A DNA stretch of 64,000 nt, from assembly GCF_000702545.1 (NCBI RefSeq), contig NZ_JNIO01000008.1, positions 1,674,001 to 1,738,000 on the forward strand. Reading direction: 5' to 3'. This document shows positions 44,687-51,137 of this stretch, one piece after another. Source of the DNA: Selenomonas sp. AB3002 (GTDB taxonomy: Bacteria > Bacillota > Negativicutes > Selenomonadales > Selenomonadaceae). How positions within the stretch are numbered: position 1 is the stretch's first letter; the number at the start of each line of letters is the position of its first letter. Both the position numbers and the translations under genes were made by a program. Below the pieces are notes generated by a model. The model was given only the letters and a program-made list of their open reading frames with translations, had not been told where the DNA came from and did not search any database.

Positions 44687-46033
44687 TTAGGACCTCATAA
44701 CCAGGTTCACCACAAAGGCGATACTCACCAGCCACATGATCCAGCTTACATCCTTGTGCTTGCCTGCGCAGGTCTTGAGCACTGCGTAGCTCACAAAGCC
44801 GAAGGCAAAGCCATTGGCAATGGAGGAAGTCATGGGCATCATCAGAATGGTGAGGAAAGCGGGCAGAGCCACGGTGTAATCCTGCCAGTTGATCTTGCCC
44901 ACATCAGCCATCATCATAGCACCTACCAGAATCAGGGCAGGAGTGGTGGCGAAGCCCGGCACCAGACCGATAAGGGGTGCAAAGGCCAGAGAAACCAGGA
45001 AGAGGACAGCCACCGTCACAGCTGTGAGACCCGTCTTGCCGCCGGCAGCGATACCTGCGGCGCTCTCTATATAGGAAGTAACCGTGGAAGTACCGAACAC
45101 AGCAGAAGCCATGGTGCCCACAGCATCCGTAGTGAGGGCCCGGTCGATGTTCTCGATCTGGCCGTCCGGCTTCACCATCTTGGCCTTGCTGGTGAGACCT
45201 ATCAGTGTACCCATATTATCGAAAAGTTCCACCACCGTGAAGGTGAAGATAATGGAAACAATGCCGTAGTTCCAGGCACCTGCCAGGTCAAGCTGGCCAA
45301 AAGTGGCGCTCATGCTGGGCACGCTGGTGCTGATGACATCAGTGAGGCTGTGCGGTGCCGGGGTATACCCCATCACCATGGCAATCACAGTAGTCACCAC
45401 AATGCCGATAAGGATAGAGCCCTGCACATTGCGGGCCATGAGTGCGCCCGTCAGCAACAGGCTGAACAGGGAAAGCATGGTAGTAGGAGCCACCACAGAA
45501 CCCAAAGTGATGAAAGTGGCAGCATCAGCCACGATGAGGCCGGAACCCTTGAGACCGATAAAGGCGATAAAGGTACCGATACCCACACCAATAGCTACCT
45601 TCAGGTCCGCCGGCACAGCGTTGATGATGGCCTGACGGATACCTCCCAGGGTCAGGATAAAGAAAATCACGCCGGAGAAGAACACAGCGCCCAAAGCTAC
45701 CGTCCAGTGCAGGTGCAGCACACCTACCACATAGAAGGCAAAGAAGGCGTTCAGGCCCATGCCCGGCGCCAGAGCCACAGGATAGTTGGCAAAGACGCCC
45801 ATCATGGTAGTGGCCAGAGCCGCAATCCAGATGGTGGAGGCAATGGCTGCTTCCTTGGGAATCCCGGCCTCGGCCAGGATATTGGGGTTGACGAACATGA
45901 TGTAGGCCAGGGCGATGAAGGTGGTGAAGCCCGCTATCATCTCCGTCCTGATGGAGCTTCCCTTCTCCCTGATCTTAAAGAACTTCTCAATGAAATTTGG
46001 CTGCCCTGCCGACTGCTTCATTTCAGCTTGCAT
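44687..46033 (-). CDS. NCS2 family purine permease (PbuG/AzgA-like)
   Basis: The 448-residue product has about twelve to fourteen hydrophobic segments and the COG2252 signatures RTEMIAGFTTFIALAYIMFVNP, PVALAPGMGLNAFFAF, FTVVELFDNMGTLIGLTSKA and GTSTVTSYIESAAGIAAGGKTGLTAV. Such permeases import hypoxanthine, guanine or adenine by proton symport. AGGAGG lies 11 bases before the ATG. A purine-riboswitch-like leader lies directly upstream, and its P1 stem touches this ribosome site, consistent with purine-controlled translation. Confidence 0.94.
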   Translation of the reverse strand: MQAEMKQSAGQPNFIEKFFKIREKGSSIRTEMIAGFTTFIALAYIMFVNPNILAEAGIPKEAAIASTIWIAALATTMMGVFANYPVALAPGMGLNAFFAFYVVGVLHLHWTVALGAVFFSGVIFFILTLGGIRQAIINAVPADLKVAIGVGIGTFIAFIGLKGSGLIVADAATFITLGSVVAPTTMLSLFSLLLTGALMARNVQGSILIGIVVTTVIAMVMGYTPAPHSLTDVISTSVPSMSATFGQLDLAGAWNYGIVSIIFTFTVVELFDNMGTLIGLTSKAKMVKPDGQIENIDRALTTDAVGTMASAVFGTSTVTSYIESAAGIAAGGKTGLTAVTVAVLFLVSLAFAPLIGLVPGFATTPALILVGAMMMADVGKINWQDYTVALPAFLTILMMPMTSSIANGFAFGFVSYAVLKTCAGKHKDVSWIMWLVSIAFVVNLVMRS

Positions 46034-46045
46034 ACGAAAAATTTC

Positions 46046-46117
46046 CTCCTATAGCCTTGGGCGGTTTACGGCCGCCTGGTAGAAACGCCCGCACCCTATC
46101 TGCGAGCTTATACAGTA
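46046..46117 (-). promoter_or_regulatory. purine-riboswitch-like leader of the permease gene
   Basis: The minus strand shows the aptamer landmarks in order: TATAA (J1/2); P2 GCTCGCA/TGCGGGC with loop GATAGGG; J2/3 TTTCTACC; P3 GGCGG/CCGCC with loop CCGTAAA; then GGCTATAG. The P1 base can form from CTGTA and TATAG. Relative to characterised purine aptamers the 3' side of P3 carries an extra CAA and J3/1 reads GGC instead of GAC. The ligand-contacting C before TATAG is present, which favours guanine or hypoxanthine over adenine. P1 runs into AGGAGG of the permease, suggesting translational control. Confidence 0.75.
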
Positions 46118-46202
46118 ATAACGACAACGATTAGAGTATCATGAAAGTGGACATAAGTCAATTTGATATTGCAATTAAAACTTTCACACAATATCTGCAA
46201 AC

Positions 46203-46721: not shown

Positions 46722-48332
46722 TCACTCTGCCCGATAGACCGACTCATCAACAGCATGCTCATGCCTGGCCAGCAACAAGGCAACAGTAATGCCCCCTGCA
46801 GAATTGAGGGGCGTCCGCAGCATAGAAACCAGCGGGTCCACGGAAAGCACCATGCCGATGGCCTCTATGGGAATCCCCACAGATACAGCCACCGAGGCCA
46901 GGCAGATGACCGCCCCTCCCGTCACTCCTGGAGAGCCAAAGGAAAGGGCCACAGAAGTAAGCGCCAGCGTCATCAGGAAGCCTGAGCTGACCTCAATCCC
47001 GTACAGCTTGGCCAGCATGATGCTTTGCAGGATAAGGAACGCGCAATTGCCGTCCATCTTCACAGAAGCCCCCATGGGTATGGCAAAGCCAGCCAGCTTT
47101 TCCTGTACCCCCAGCTTTTTGACACATAGCTCCATGGAAAAGGGCATAGCAGCGTTGGTGCTGCCCAGAGAGGCCGGCAGCGGCAGAAAGCCAGCCAACT
47201 TTCTCAAAAAGATCCAGGGCGGCAGGTGTCCCGCCGCAGCCACCAAAGCACCGTACACCACCAGCATGAAAACCAGCATCAGCCCTTGGGCCAGCAGTGC
47301 CTCCATAAAAGCCCAAAGGGACTCCAGCCCCACCTGGAAGACAAGGGAAGCCATAGACAAGAAAGCCACCAGGGGAACCAGCCGCACGATGGTCCTTATC
47401 ACCCGCAGGCAGAGAGTGTCCATGGCATTCACGATATCAATCAAAGGACGCGCTTTTTCCCCCATGCTGTTTATGGTCAGGCCAAAGAGCAACGCCAAAA
47501 AAATCACCTGCAGCATATTGCCGGAAATCACCGGCTCCGCAAACTGATGCGGTACAATCCCCACGATCATATCCAGCAGTGACATATGGGCAGCAGCAGT
47601 ATCCCCGGCTGTCCCTATCTGCGCGAATTCCCCTGAAAAGATATGGACGCCCAGGAAAAGGGCACCACCAGCAGCACAAAGGGAGGTCACCAAGTACAGC
47701 CCCATCATGTGCCTGCCCATTTTCCCAACATCTGAGACATTGGAAAGATTCATGATTCCTGCCATGATGGAGAAGAGCACCACCGGTGCCAGCATCATGT
47801 TCATGGCATTCAGGAACATGGTGCGGGCGCTGCGCAGAGCGTAAGTATCAATCATGCTCACAAGGTCAGGCGAAAGCACTTCCTCCAGCACAGAACCGAC
47901 CAGAAGGCCCAATGCCATACCCATCAGGGTATTGCGCACCTGCTTCTTCTTGTCCTTGCGCACCTCGATGGAAAGGCAGTTCTTGCCGTTCCTGCGGGAA
48001 TACCCCAGCCACTCGCGATTGCTGGTCAGGATGATGTGACGGAAATAATCCACCTCTTCCTCTGTCCAGGAATTTTCTTCGCTCAAAGGATTATACGCCT
48101 CGCCCTCTGAGGTCAGACGCAAGCTCACCGCGCCAAAGCGGCGATGTATGCCCACTTTGACTTCCTTGCTTTTATGCTCAAAAAGGCGGTAGCAGATTTC
48201 TTCCAGCAAGAGGCTGGAGCGTATGACTGCCGCATGCTCTATGCCCATCTGCACGAGCTTTTCTTCAATTTTGCCCTGTTCGCTCCCAAAGGTTTCCTTC
48301 GTCAGCAGGAAACTGGACGCTTTTCCTATCAT
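46722..48332 (-). CDS. SDF-family (glutamate/dicarboxylate) symporter with N-terminal RsbW-like ATPase domain
   Basis: The 536-residue product has two parts. Residues about 1-130 are soluble. They follow the layout of GHKL/RsbW ATPases, with a helix [16 protein letters not shown] at the N-box place and [12 protein letters not shown] at the D-x-G place, then a final strand NCLSIEVR. The key Asn and Asp of active kinases are replaced, so it is degenerate. Residues about 135-530 are a complete SDF transporter with [23 protein letters not shown] and [18 protein letters not shown]; the usual NMDGT reads KMDGN. It overlaps hemL by 4 bases and is followed by a STAS gene. Confidence 0.88.
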
Positions 48333-49642
48333 AACGCCGCCACCGCAGCAAAGGCCCTGCCTGCCGCCTCTATAGTGCGGTCAATGTCCTCCTCGCTGTG
48401 GGCGCCGCTCATGAACAATGTCTCGAACTGGGAAGGAGCCAGATAGATGCCCTGCTCCAGCATGGCCTTGAACCAGACCTTGAAGGCTTCTTGGTCGGCG
48501 GCTTCTGCATCAGCGTAGTCATAAACTTCCTTTTCGCTGAAGAAGATGCCAAACATGGAGCCTGCCTGATGGGCCTGAATGGAGACGCCCGCTTCCCTGG
48601 CCTTTTCCTGCCAGCCCAGCAGGAGTTTTTTCGTCTTCAAGGTGAGCTTCCGGCTGTAGTCCGGCTCACCTGCTTCCGGCTCGGCGGTGATGATTTTGAG
48701 AGTCTCCAGCCCAGCCGTCATGGCCAGGGGATTGCCGGAGAGGGTGCCTGCCTGGTACACGGGACCGGAGGGAGAAACCTTTGACATAATCTCCCGCTTG
48801 CCGCCGTAAGCTGCCACCGGCAGGCCGCCGCCGATGATCTTGCCCAGACAGGTGAGATCAGGGACGATGCCGTAGGCCGCCTGAGCCCCACCCAAGGATG
48901 CACGGAAGCCGCACATGACCTCGTCGAAAATCAGGAGGGTGCCGTGTTCCTCCGTGAGCTTCCGCAGCAGGCGCAGATAGCCCTGTTTGGGAGGAATACA
49001 GCCCATGTTGCCAGCCACCGGCTCTACGATAACGGCTGCAATCTCATCACCGCATTTATCCATGATTTCCTTGAAAGCCTCTTCGTCATTGTAGGGAATG
49101 GTGATGGTATCTGCCGCCGTTCCCTTGGTGACACCGGGAGAGCTGGGCACGCCAAAGGTGGCCATGCCGCTGCCAGCGCTCACCAGCAGGCTGTCGCTGT
49201 GGCCGTGGTAGCAGCCGATAAACTTGAGGATTTTTTCCCTGCCCGTATAGCCACGAGCCAGGCGCAGTGCGCTCATGGTGGACTCCGTGCCGGAGTTCAC
49301 CATGCGGAGCATTTCCATGGAGGGATAGACGGACTGGACAAGTTTCGCCAGCTCACTCTCAATCACCGTGGGCGCACCGTAGCTGGTGCCCCGGGTAGCA
49401 GCCTCCTGCAGGGCCTTCACTACCTGGGGATGGGCATGGCCCACCACCATGGGACCCCAGGAACCTACATAATCTATGTACTCATTGCCGTCAATATCGT
49501 ATATCTTGTCCCCCTCAGCCCGGGCGATGAAAGGAGGGTTGCAGTCCACGCTCCTGTAGGAACGCACCGGACTGTTCACCCCGCCGGGCATCAAGGTTTT
49601 GGCTTCATTGAAGGCTTCAAGAGATTTAGACAAATTCAGCAT
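48329..49642 (-). CDS. hemL: glutamate-1-semialdehyde 2,1-aminomutase
   Basis: The 437-residue pyridoxal-phosphate enzyme makes 5-aminolevulinate. It shows [65 protein letters not shown] and [16 protein letters not shown], which carries the cofactor lysine. I start at [11 protein letters not shown]; a TTG-initiated longer frame to 49708 has no ribosome site. It is separated from hemB by a 500-base stretch that holds a plus-strand small-peptide transcript. The symporter gene overlaps its 3' end. Confidence 0.96.
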
Positions 49643-49670: not shown

Positions 49671-49700
49671 TTGCTCTCTTCATAGTTCTTGTGGTATACT
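49671..49700 (+). promoter_or_regulatory. candidate promoter of the small-peptide transcript
   Basis: TTGCTC and TATACT are separated by 18 bases, and TGG before TATACT gives an extended -10. It points into the 49795 peptide gene and away from hemL, whose start it abuts. Confidence 0.55.
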
Positions 49701-49794
49701 TTAACCAAGCTACAAAACGGTAGGCGGTTAGCCCTCTCATCAAAGCTGGCGTTAAAAGCGCGCGGTCGATCGGCAGATGATGGGAGGTGATAGC

Positions 49795-49866
49795 ATGAAT
49801 GATACGACGCTTCAGCTGTTGCTGATCTTGTTAATCATCCTCGCTGTCAACAGCAGAAAGAAATAA
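49795..49866 (+). CDS. 23-residue hydrophobic peptide, type I toxin-like
   Basis: An ATG preceded by GGGAGGTGATAGC opens a 23-codon frame: a polar start (MNDTTLQ), an uninterrupted hydrophobic run ([11 protein letters not shown]) and a basic end (NSRKK). This matches the form of type I toxin peptides that insert into the membrane. It has its own promoter-like sequence, lies within a long-range RNA duplex and is followed by a hairpin and a strong terminator. I do not recognise a named family. An antisense RNA would be expected but its promoter is not clear. Confidence 0.6.
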
Positions 49867-49895
49867 CCGCCCCAGTTCCCCAACTTTGGCGGTTA
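49864..49895 (+). other. hairpin overlapping the stop of the small peptide
   Basis: TAACCGCC and GGCGGTTA form a perfect 8-base stem that begins at the stop codon of the 23-residue frame. It is part of the folded transcript; no T-run follows. Confidence 0.55.
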
Positions 49896-49944
49896 ATCTT
49901 GTATTGACCTGAAATTTTGAGGGCTAACCGTTTACCAGTAGCCT

Positions 49945-49973
49945 GCCTCCTGTTAGCGCAGGAGGCTTTTTCT
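49945..49973 (+). terminator. terminator of the small-peptide transcript
   Basis: GCCTCCTG and CAGGAGGC pair around TTAGCG and are followed by TTTTTCT. With the promoter at 49671 it bounds a transcript of about 265 bases. Confidence 0.85.
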
Positions 49974-50150
49974 ATAACGCCATTGTTCCGGTTTTGCCGT
50001 AGGCAAAACTTCCTCTTAGCGTTTCAACGAGGCAGGAAATATTAGCTCGCCACATGTTAGTAGTTTGCACTCCCACCTATAGAGGTGATGTATACCTTGT
50101 TCCTCGTTATATGTATTGTAACATATTTACAGCCCTGTTTCAATTATCCT

Positions 50151-51137
50151 TCAATAAACAATTCCTTCCTCCAGCCAGCGGGCAGCATCAAGGGCATGAT
50201 AGGTGATGATCATTTCTGCCCCGGCCCGCTTCATGCAGTTCAGGGACTCCAGCACAATGCGGGGCTCGTCGATCCAGCCATTGGCAGCAGCCGCCTTCAC
50301 CATGGCATACTCGCCGCTGACATTGTAGGTGACCAGGGGCAGGTCGCACTTCTCCTTGGCCTCTTTCACAATGTCCAAGTAAGCAAGGGCAGGCTTCACG
50401 ATGATCATGTCTGCCCCCTCGGCCATATCCAGAGCCAGTTCCTTCATGGCCTCACGGCGGTTGGCCGGGTCCATCTGGTACTGGCGGCGGTCACCGAATT
50501 GGGGAGCGCTGTCAGCCGCATCGCGGAAGGGTCCATAGTAGCCGGAGGCGTACTTGATGGCATAGCTCATGATGGCGGTGTTGATATGACCCTTTTCGTC
50601 CAAAGCCTCACGGATAGCCGCCACCCTGCCGTCCATCATGTCAGAAGGCGCCACGATATCAGCCCCGGCCTCAGCCTGGCTCACCGCCACCTTCTGCAGA
50701 TGCTTCAGAGTAGCATCATTGTCCACATAATGACCGCAAAGCTCCCCGCAGTGTCCGTGGCTGGTATACTCGCAAAGGCACACATCGCCAATGATCACCA
50801 GTTCCGGCACTTCCTGCTTGATGGCTGCGATGGCCCGCTGCACAGGGCTCTTCATATCCCAGGCAGAAGAGCCGATCTCGTCCTTGTACTCAGGAATGCC
50901 GAAGACCTCCACCGCAGGAATCCCCAAAGAAGCCACCAGCTTGGCCTCCTCCACTGCCTGGTCCACAGACAGATGGTAGCAGCCGGGCATGGAAGGAATC
51001 TCCTCCCTTACATTGGTGCCCGGTACAAGAAACAGAGGATAGATGAAATCCTTCACAGAAAGAGACGTCTCCCGCACCATGGCGCGGATGTTCTTGGAAA
51101 TGCGCATACGGCGTGGCCGCAGTACCTGATTGAGCAT
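50151..51137 (-). CDS. hemB: delta-aminolevulinic acid dehydratase (porphobilinogen synthase)
   Basis: The 328-residue enzyme joins two aminolevulinates to porphobilinogen. It shows the zinc-type cysteine cluster DVCLCEYTSHGHCG, the Schiff-base lysines in YAIKYASGYYGPFRDA and MIIVKPALAYLDIV, and the N-terminal RPRRMRISKNIRAMVRE. I start at MLNQVLRPRR with GGAAG upstream. It follows cobA-hemD by about 30 bases in the haem operon. Length is normal. Confidence 0.97.
   Translation of the reverse strand: MLNQVLRPRRMRISKNIRAMVRETSLSVKDFIYPLFLVPGTNVREEIPSMPGCYHLSVDQAVEEAKLVASLGIPAVEVFGIPEYKDEIGSSAWDMKSPVQRAIAAIKQEVPELVIIGDVCLCEYTSHGHCGELCGHYVDNDATLKHLQKVAVSQAEAGADIVAPSDMMDGRVAAIREALDEKGHINTAIMSYAIKYASGYYGPFRDAADSAPQFGDRRQYQMDPANRREAMKELALDMAEGADMIIVKPALAYLDIVKEAKEKCDLPLVTYNVSGEYAMVKAAAANGWIDEPRIVLESLNCMKRAGAEMIITYHALDAARWLEEGIVY

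Follow-up and report, generated by a model that had tools for sequence, protein, structure and literature searches.

Is the short plus-strand unit that separates hemB from hemL in Selenomonas sp. AB3002 a type I toxin gene, and if so, which RNA would silence it? An earlier note on the window, that is, the whole stretch of 64,000 nucleotides analysed here (genome G000, 8 contigs, 3.67 Mb), had proposed a toxin locus of about 265 bases from an extended −10 element, a ribosome site, a 23-codon ORF, a stop-codon hairpin and a terminator. All these elements were recovered where they had been read (Table 1), and NCBIfam confirmed hemB and hemL as the flanks, both opposite in strand to the peptide unit. 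The predicted mRNA of ~266 nt reproduces the proposed unit, whereas the functional unit extends to ~50143, because an antisense promoter sits there, beyond an inserted repeat of ~139 bp. We conclude that the locus is very probably a chromosomal type I toxin-antitoxin pair whose convergent genes overlap at their 3′ ends, as in bsrG/SR4 and txpA/RatA. This reading, already that of the earlier note for the toxin, is now supported by comparative sequence evidence, since it draws on a hydrophobic peptide under selection, a co-varying RNA fold, a conserved antisense gene, many paralogues and the experimentally known look-alike bsrG/SR4. Elsewhere in the window, a purine riboswitch (46032-46135, minus strand, 63.8 bits) directly precedes an ORF on the same strand (44687-46033), 448 aa long and transporter-like.

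Table 1. Features of the hemB-hemL interval, in coordinates of the window
Feature	Position	Strand	Basis
hemL	48329-49642	−	flank confirmed by NCBIfam
Weak −35 of the toxin promoter, TTGCTC	49671-49676	+	sequence
−10 of the toxin promoter, TATACT, extended by TGG at 49692-49694	49695-49700	+	sequence
Predicted toxin mRNA, ~266 nt	49707-49972	+	promoter and terminator positions; fold z −6.9
End-to-end stem, 5′ arm (outer part GCTAC, 49709-49713)	49719-49736	+	inverted repeat; co-variation with 3′ arm
Anti-Shine-Dalgarno strand CCTCTCATC, pairing with GATGGGAGG at 49779-49787 (9-bp leader stem)	49733-49741	+	sequence, folding
Shine-Dalgarno sequence GGGAGGTGAT	49782-49791	+	sequence
Toxin ORF, ATG 49795 to TAA 49866, 23 codons	49795-49866	+	sequence, pN/pS
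Predicted antisense antitoxin RNA, ~256 nt, ~118 nt overlap with the mRNA 3′ end	49853-50108	−	promoter and terminator positions
Stop-codon hairpin, predicted antisense terminator (intrinsic); T-run 49863-49853 complements Lys codons	49864-49895	−	sequence, conservation
End-to-end stem, 3′ arm (outer part GTAGC, 49938-49942)	49919-49936	+	inverted repeat; co-variation
Intrinsic terminator of the toxin mRNA (hairpin 49945-49966, then TTTTT)	49945-49971	+	sequence
Dispersed repeat, ~139 bp, short inverted ends TATAACG...CGTTATA	49973-50111		37 genome matches, alignment
Antisense promoter TTGAAA-17-TACAAT, extended −10 TG	50115-50143	−	sequence; counterpart in 32/35 genera
hemB	50151-51137	−	flank confirmed by NCBIfam

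Folding of the RNA between 49700 and 49975, the check proposed in the note, returned −108.8 kcal/mol as against −76.7 ± 4.7 kcal/mol for dinucleotide shuffles (z −6.9; 0 of 200 shuffles). The inverted repeat that had been read at the two ends of the transcript does pair at 16 of its 18 bases, and the pairing is longer than claimed, GCTAC matching GTAGC outside the repeat to lengthen the end-to-end stem. The two arms co-vary: leaders paired with their cognate 3′ arm at a mean of −41.2 kcal/mol and with the arms of other genera at −32.0 kcal/mol, and none of 20,000 permutations reached the cognate mean. This test used one locus per genus in 35 genera, and the 5′ arm was absent from the search model that retrieved them. 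The plus-strand promoter scored at least 9 of 12 positions in 48% of genera versus 16% of shuffles, a modest enrichment.

What the end-to-end stem does is another matter. It had been taken for the device that keeps the mRNA inactive; the pairing is real and conserved, but folding predicts that the ribosome site is closed instead by the leader stem (49733-49741/49779-49787), with or without the 3′ arm. The predicted unpaired probability of the Shine-Dalgarno sequence was 0.09 in the full mRNA and 0.03-0.05 without the 3′ arm. Since the Shine-Dalgarno sequence stays paired once that arm is removed, the end-to-end stem is probably not the lock, and we rejected it as what hides the ribosome site; its role probably lies in stability, folding order or antisense recognition. 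In 31 of the 35 genera the Shine-Dalgarno sequence was more paired with its own leader than with a shuffled one. In the leaders of loci L027, L078, L110, L118, L119, L125 and L108, the stem that closes it surrounds an additional motif, approximately CTGTGACCCTCCGAT-ATAGAAACCC-loop-GGGAATCT...GGAAAGGAGGG; this motif is conserved between different genera, has no match in Rfam and may represent a separate structured RNA.

The stop-codon hairpin proved to be more than the earlier note had made of it. Read on the minus strand, it would serve as the intrinsic terminator of an antisense RNA, a role that had been missed together with the antitoxin gene that decides the class. In 33 of 35 genera, six or more of the 13 minus-strand nucleotides that follow this hairpin are T, mostly as the complement of lysine codons. 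At a fixed distance, downstream of the 3′ arm, lies a minus-strand promoter that is typically near TTGACA-17-TATAAT; its best match reached at least 9 of 12 positions in 91% of the 35 genera (15% in shuffles) and at least 10 of 12 in 46% (1.7% in shuffles). The best-scoring promoter of copy c3 is displaced, with the TACAAT element still at the usual place. Promoter and terminator, both conserved over the 35 genera, delimit a predicted transcript, and with it a gene for an antisense RNA that overlaps that of the toxin, as in type I systems. An rdlD-like arrangement, with the antisense promoter just before the stop hairpin and an antisense RNA of ~55 nt, was rejected on inspecting the copies, which have no conserved −10/−35 there; what they conserve instead is a promoter close to consensus, immediately beyond the 3′ arm of the mRNA. 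Nor did the minus promoter qualify as merely that of hemL, since it recurs at copies adjoining unrelated genes. Two loci, L016 (G001, 1465-1585) and L038 (G002, 29-195), keep the 3′ arm and the antisense promoter and have lost the toxin ORF; they are apparent antitoxin-only remnants.

In most Selenomonas copies the predicted antisense RNA measures about 97-128 nt; in the window copy it would be ~256 nt, doubled in length by a dispersed repeat that sits inside the antitoxin gene, between the toxin terminator and the antisense promoter. This repeat looks like a small non-autonomous mobile element; it has no match in Rfam and is absent from the paralogues on contig C7. It occupies the same hemB-hemL place in a congener (G002, L030; 89% identity over 2.8 kb), and the unit itself is common to the two species at this position. 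The repeat extends the antisense 5′ end and leaves the promoter intact; the window pair should therefore still work. Its imperfect −10 (TACAAT) and the ~140 nt by which the promoter is farther off than usual could nevertheless weaken the window antisense gene.

We then turn to the peptide. Over 11 Selenomonas copies the pooled pN/pS was 0.21, and the core LLLILLII was invariant or conservatively replaced while the codons varied freely, many of the changes being synonymous. Because of this combination, the copies indicate that selection acts on the peptide, and not only on the RNA; the locus would thus hold a small hydrophobic peptide gene with a ribosome site, selected as a protein, as type I toxin genes do. 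The outcome was the opposite of stems conserved without a peptide, which the earlier note had held against its own reading: stems and peptide are both conserved. The window peptide matched no toxin family in Pfam and NCBIfam, Pfam Hol_Tox (PF16935, cut-off 23.3 bits) included; nothing in its own genome scored above the Hol_Tox cut-off, and the Selenomonas LLLILLIIL peptides are without a match to it.

Seven further distinct copies reside in the same genome, which amounts to at least eight distinct loci and at least three peptide types. Three of them, with 79-83% identity, came from a DNA search and lie together in 9 kb of contig C7, a region that also carries HydF, HydG and [FeFe] hydrogenase genes. 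More distant ones emerged from a covariance-model search with the 3′ part, namely C7:171189 (peptide MEQLIIVLILLWLIRIEAKK), C8:2070038 and C8:2133026 (both MTLESMLALVGFTAAIFSLGYMIGKDLNKNRNDRP, the frame ending just inside the hairpin), and two copies with weak scores and the layout present, C7:24838 (MNDSIIILLLVLLILVVAKK, E 0.001) and C7:169718 (MNELILVLILILLIIVEIKK, E 0.004). Two segments of 1.2 kb, C8:2069500-2070700 and C8:2132500-2133700, are 100% identical and contain one locus apiece (L108 and L109); they may reflect a duplication or an assembly artefact. In L039 and L042 of congener G004, and also in L014/L032, an insertion with ends GGGCGTGTTGATTAA breaks the 5′ arm and is likely an IS element at contig ends. 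A search of the plasmid collection gave no match.

How far the arrangement extends was assessed with a covariance model, R1, built from 20 sequences that span only the stretch from the final lysine codons through the stop-codon hairpin to the 3′ arm. ORF, minus promoter and end-to-end pairing lie outside R1 and agree with it. At E ≤ 0.001, R1 matched 142 of 300 genomes of the class, in 52 of 97 genera and with up to 14 matches per genome; in a phylum-wide draw it matched 22 of 299 genomes, 7 of these from the host's own family. A Shine-Dalgarno sequence followed by a hydrophobic ORF ending at the hairpin accompanied 76 of 95 scaffold hits (80%), versus 1.9% when the upstream DNA was shuffled; the other 19 had no intact ORF by the criteria used. 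The peptides on this scaffold differ strongly from genus to genus. Elsewhere in the class, other genera have loci (e.g. G054, L022) with Hol_Tox peptides on the window-type RNA scaffold, among them YEALTFAIAFATL, which exceeds the Pfam cut-off (24.4 versus 23.3 bits), and 11 of 42 scaffold peptides matched Hol_Tox at E ≤ 1, unlike those of Selenomonas.

Rfam held no family for the locus at gathering or loose thresholds, apart from a faint, local resemblance between the minus strand (CAAGATTA plus hairpin) and the rdlD antitoxin (RF01813; 14.8 bits, E 4.2), far under the gathering score of 50, so that the locus is not a member; Rdl, besides, acts at the 5′ region of its target (PMC6562991). Among the closest counterparts is bsrG/SR4 of the SPbeta prophage of Bacillus subtilis, which displays the same succession of end-to-end stem, Shine-Dalgarno-closing leader hairpin, lysine-ended hydrophobic peptide, stop-codon hairpin and strong terminator. 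Its antisense gene is likewise convergent (PMC6562991), and its stop-codon hairpin, with a minus-strand T-run, is able to terminate the antisense RNA. The two differ in peptide length (38 residues in BsrG, 23 here), in peptide sequence, which is unrelated, and in context, prophage versus chromosomal housekeeping genes. Antitoxins of the bsrG/SR4-txpA/RatA group form duplexes of 100-140 bp with the 3′ end of the toxin mRNA, and the ribosome-binding site of the mRNA is sequestered (PMC6562991); the window locus has convergent genes with a predicted 3′ overlap of ~118 nt, and folding predicts sequestration of its ribosome site. From the published description rather than from sequence, txpA/RatA of the B. 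subtilis skin element also resembles it, with an mRNA of ~270 nt, a RatA overlap of ~120 nt and silencing of the toxin that needs RNase III (PMC3531473), together with the sequestered ribosome-binding site (PMC6562991); txpA, unlike the window gene, lies in a prophage-like element. No homology of toxin or RNA sequence to this group emerged: the window peptide had no family match, and the covariance model found none in the BsrG locus, the best chance hit scoring 7.1 bits; that locus had been retrieved with a BsrG peptide identical to the record letter for letter. Because of this result we claim no homology to bsrG; we class the window locus with bsrG/SR4 and txpA/RatA by layout, not as a sequence homologue. 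Type I pairs of Clostridioides difficile (e.g. CD2517.1-RCd8) share with the window family convergent overlapping genes, small hydrophobic toxins, lysine-rich ends and multiple copies (PMC6563280), but their toxins have 34-53 residues and are often in prophages or near CRISPR arrays, and no sequence link was found.

Of the other explanations, the one that survives best would make the peptide a small regulatory or structural membrane component under tight antisense control, for instance a modulator of a membrane complex, rather than a toxin. Several copies do adjoin housekeeping genes (hemB/hemL, HydF/HydG and one gene reading as mnmG), and two species share the hemB-hemL position. A single scaffold bearing very different peptides across genera, Hol_Tox included, speaks against one specific protein partner, however, as do the many copies per genome and the layout matching bsrG/SR4 against the idea as a whole, and we regard it as improbable. 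Copy numbers of up to 14 per genome and the clustering of copies would also suit a mainly selfish or mobile RNA repeat with an incidental ORF. The purifying selection on the peptide largely refutes this, and the ORF frequency on the scaffold (80% of hits versus 2% in shuffles), the copy at an orthologous position in two species, and the terminal repeats or transposase that were not noticed at the copies also stand against it, leaving it scarcely credible. A third possibility, that the unit regulates the haem genes in cis or attenuates them through a leader peptide and that the minus promoter serves hemL, fits the location of the unit and the direction of that promoter, but is just as hard to sustain given a predicted plus-strand RNA that overlaps neither hemB nor hemL, a minus-strand terminator ahead of hemL, and the recurrence of toxin unit and minus promoter beside unrelated genes.

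For the type I pair, then, we envisage the following course of events. Transcription of the plus strand would yield an extensively folded mRNA; the membrane peptide it encodes, 23 residues long with one span and a basic tail, would damage the membrane when overproduced. Both conserved stems would act on this mRNA, the leader stem by shutting the ribosome site and the long stem by tying the ends, with presumable effects on translation and stability. From its own sigma-70 promoter, the minus strand would produce an antisense RNA that stops at the hairpin in which the toxin stop codon lies. Its pairing with ~118 nt of the mRNA 3′ end would most likely lead to RNase III cleavage and mRNA decay, by analogy with RatA/txpA.

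Annotation overlooks type I toxins on account of their minute size and rapid divergence, and we found no description of type I systems in Negativicutes in the open-access papers searched. What is new here is an unrelated toxin sequence on a known layout and its class-wide spread, and the main interest lies in the breadth of that spread and in one RNA frame with different peptides. Tentatively, and with somewhat more doubt than confidence, we propose that Negativicutes and some other Bacillota inherited one RNA chassis, made up of the end-to-end stem, the Shine-Dalgarno lock and a stop-codon hairpin doubling as antitoxin terminator, in which the toxin was replaced, or diverged beyond recognition, several times; the identity of the system would then reside in the RNA rather than in the toxin, and bsrG/SR4 would be a distant instance. 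The window copy provides a natural experiment in which the antitoxin gene was rebuilt by a dispersed repeat. The RNA frame itself can be searched for, and as a signature it uncovers such systems in roughly half of the Negativicutes genera sampled; with it the separate evolution of RNA frame and toxin becomes testable.
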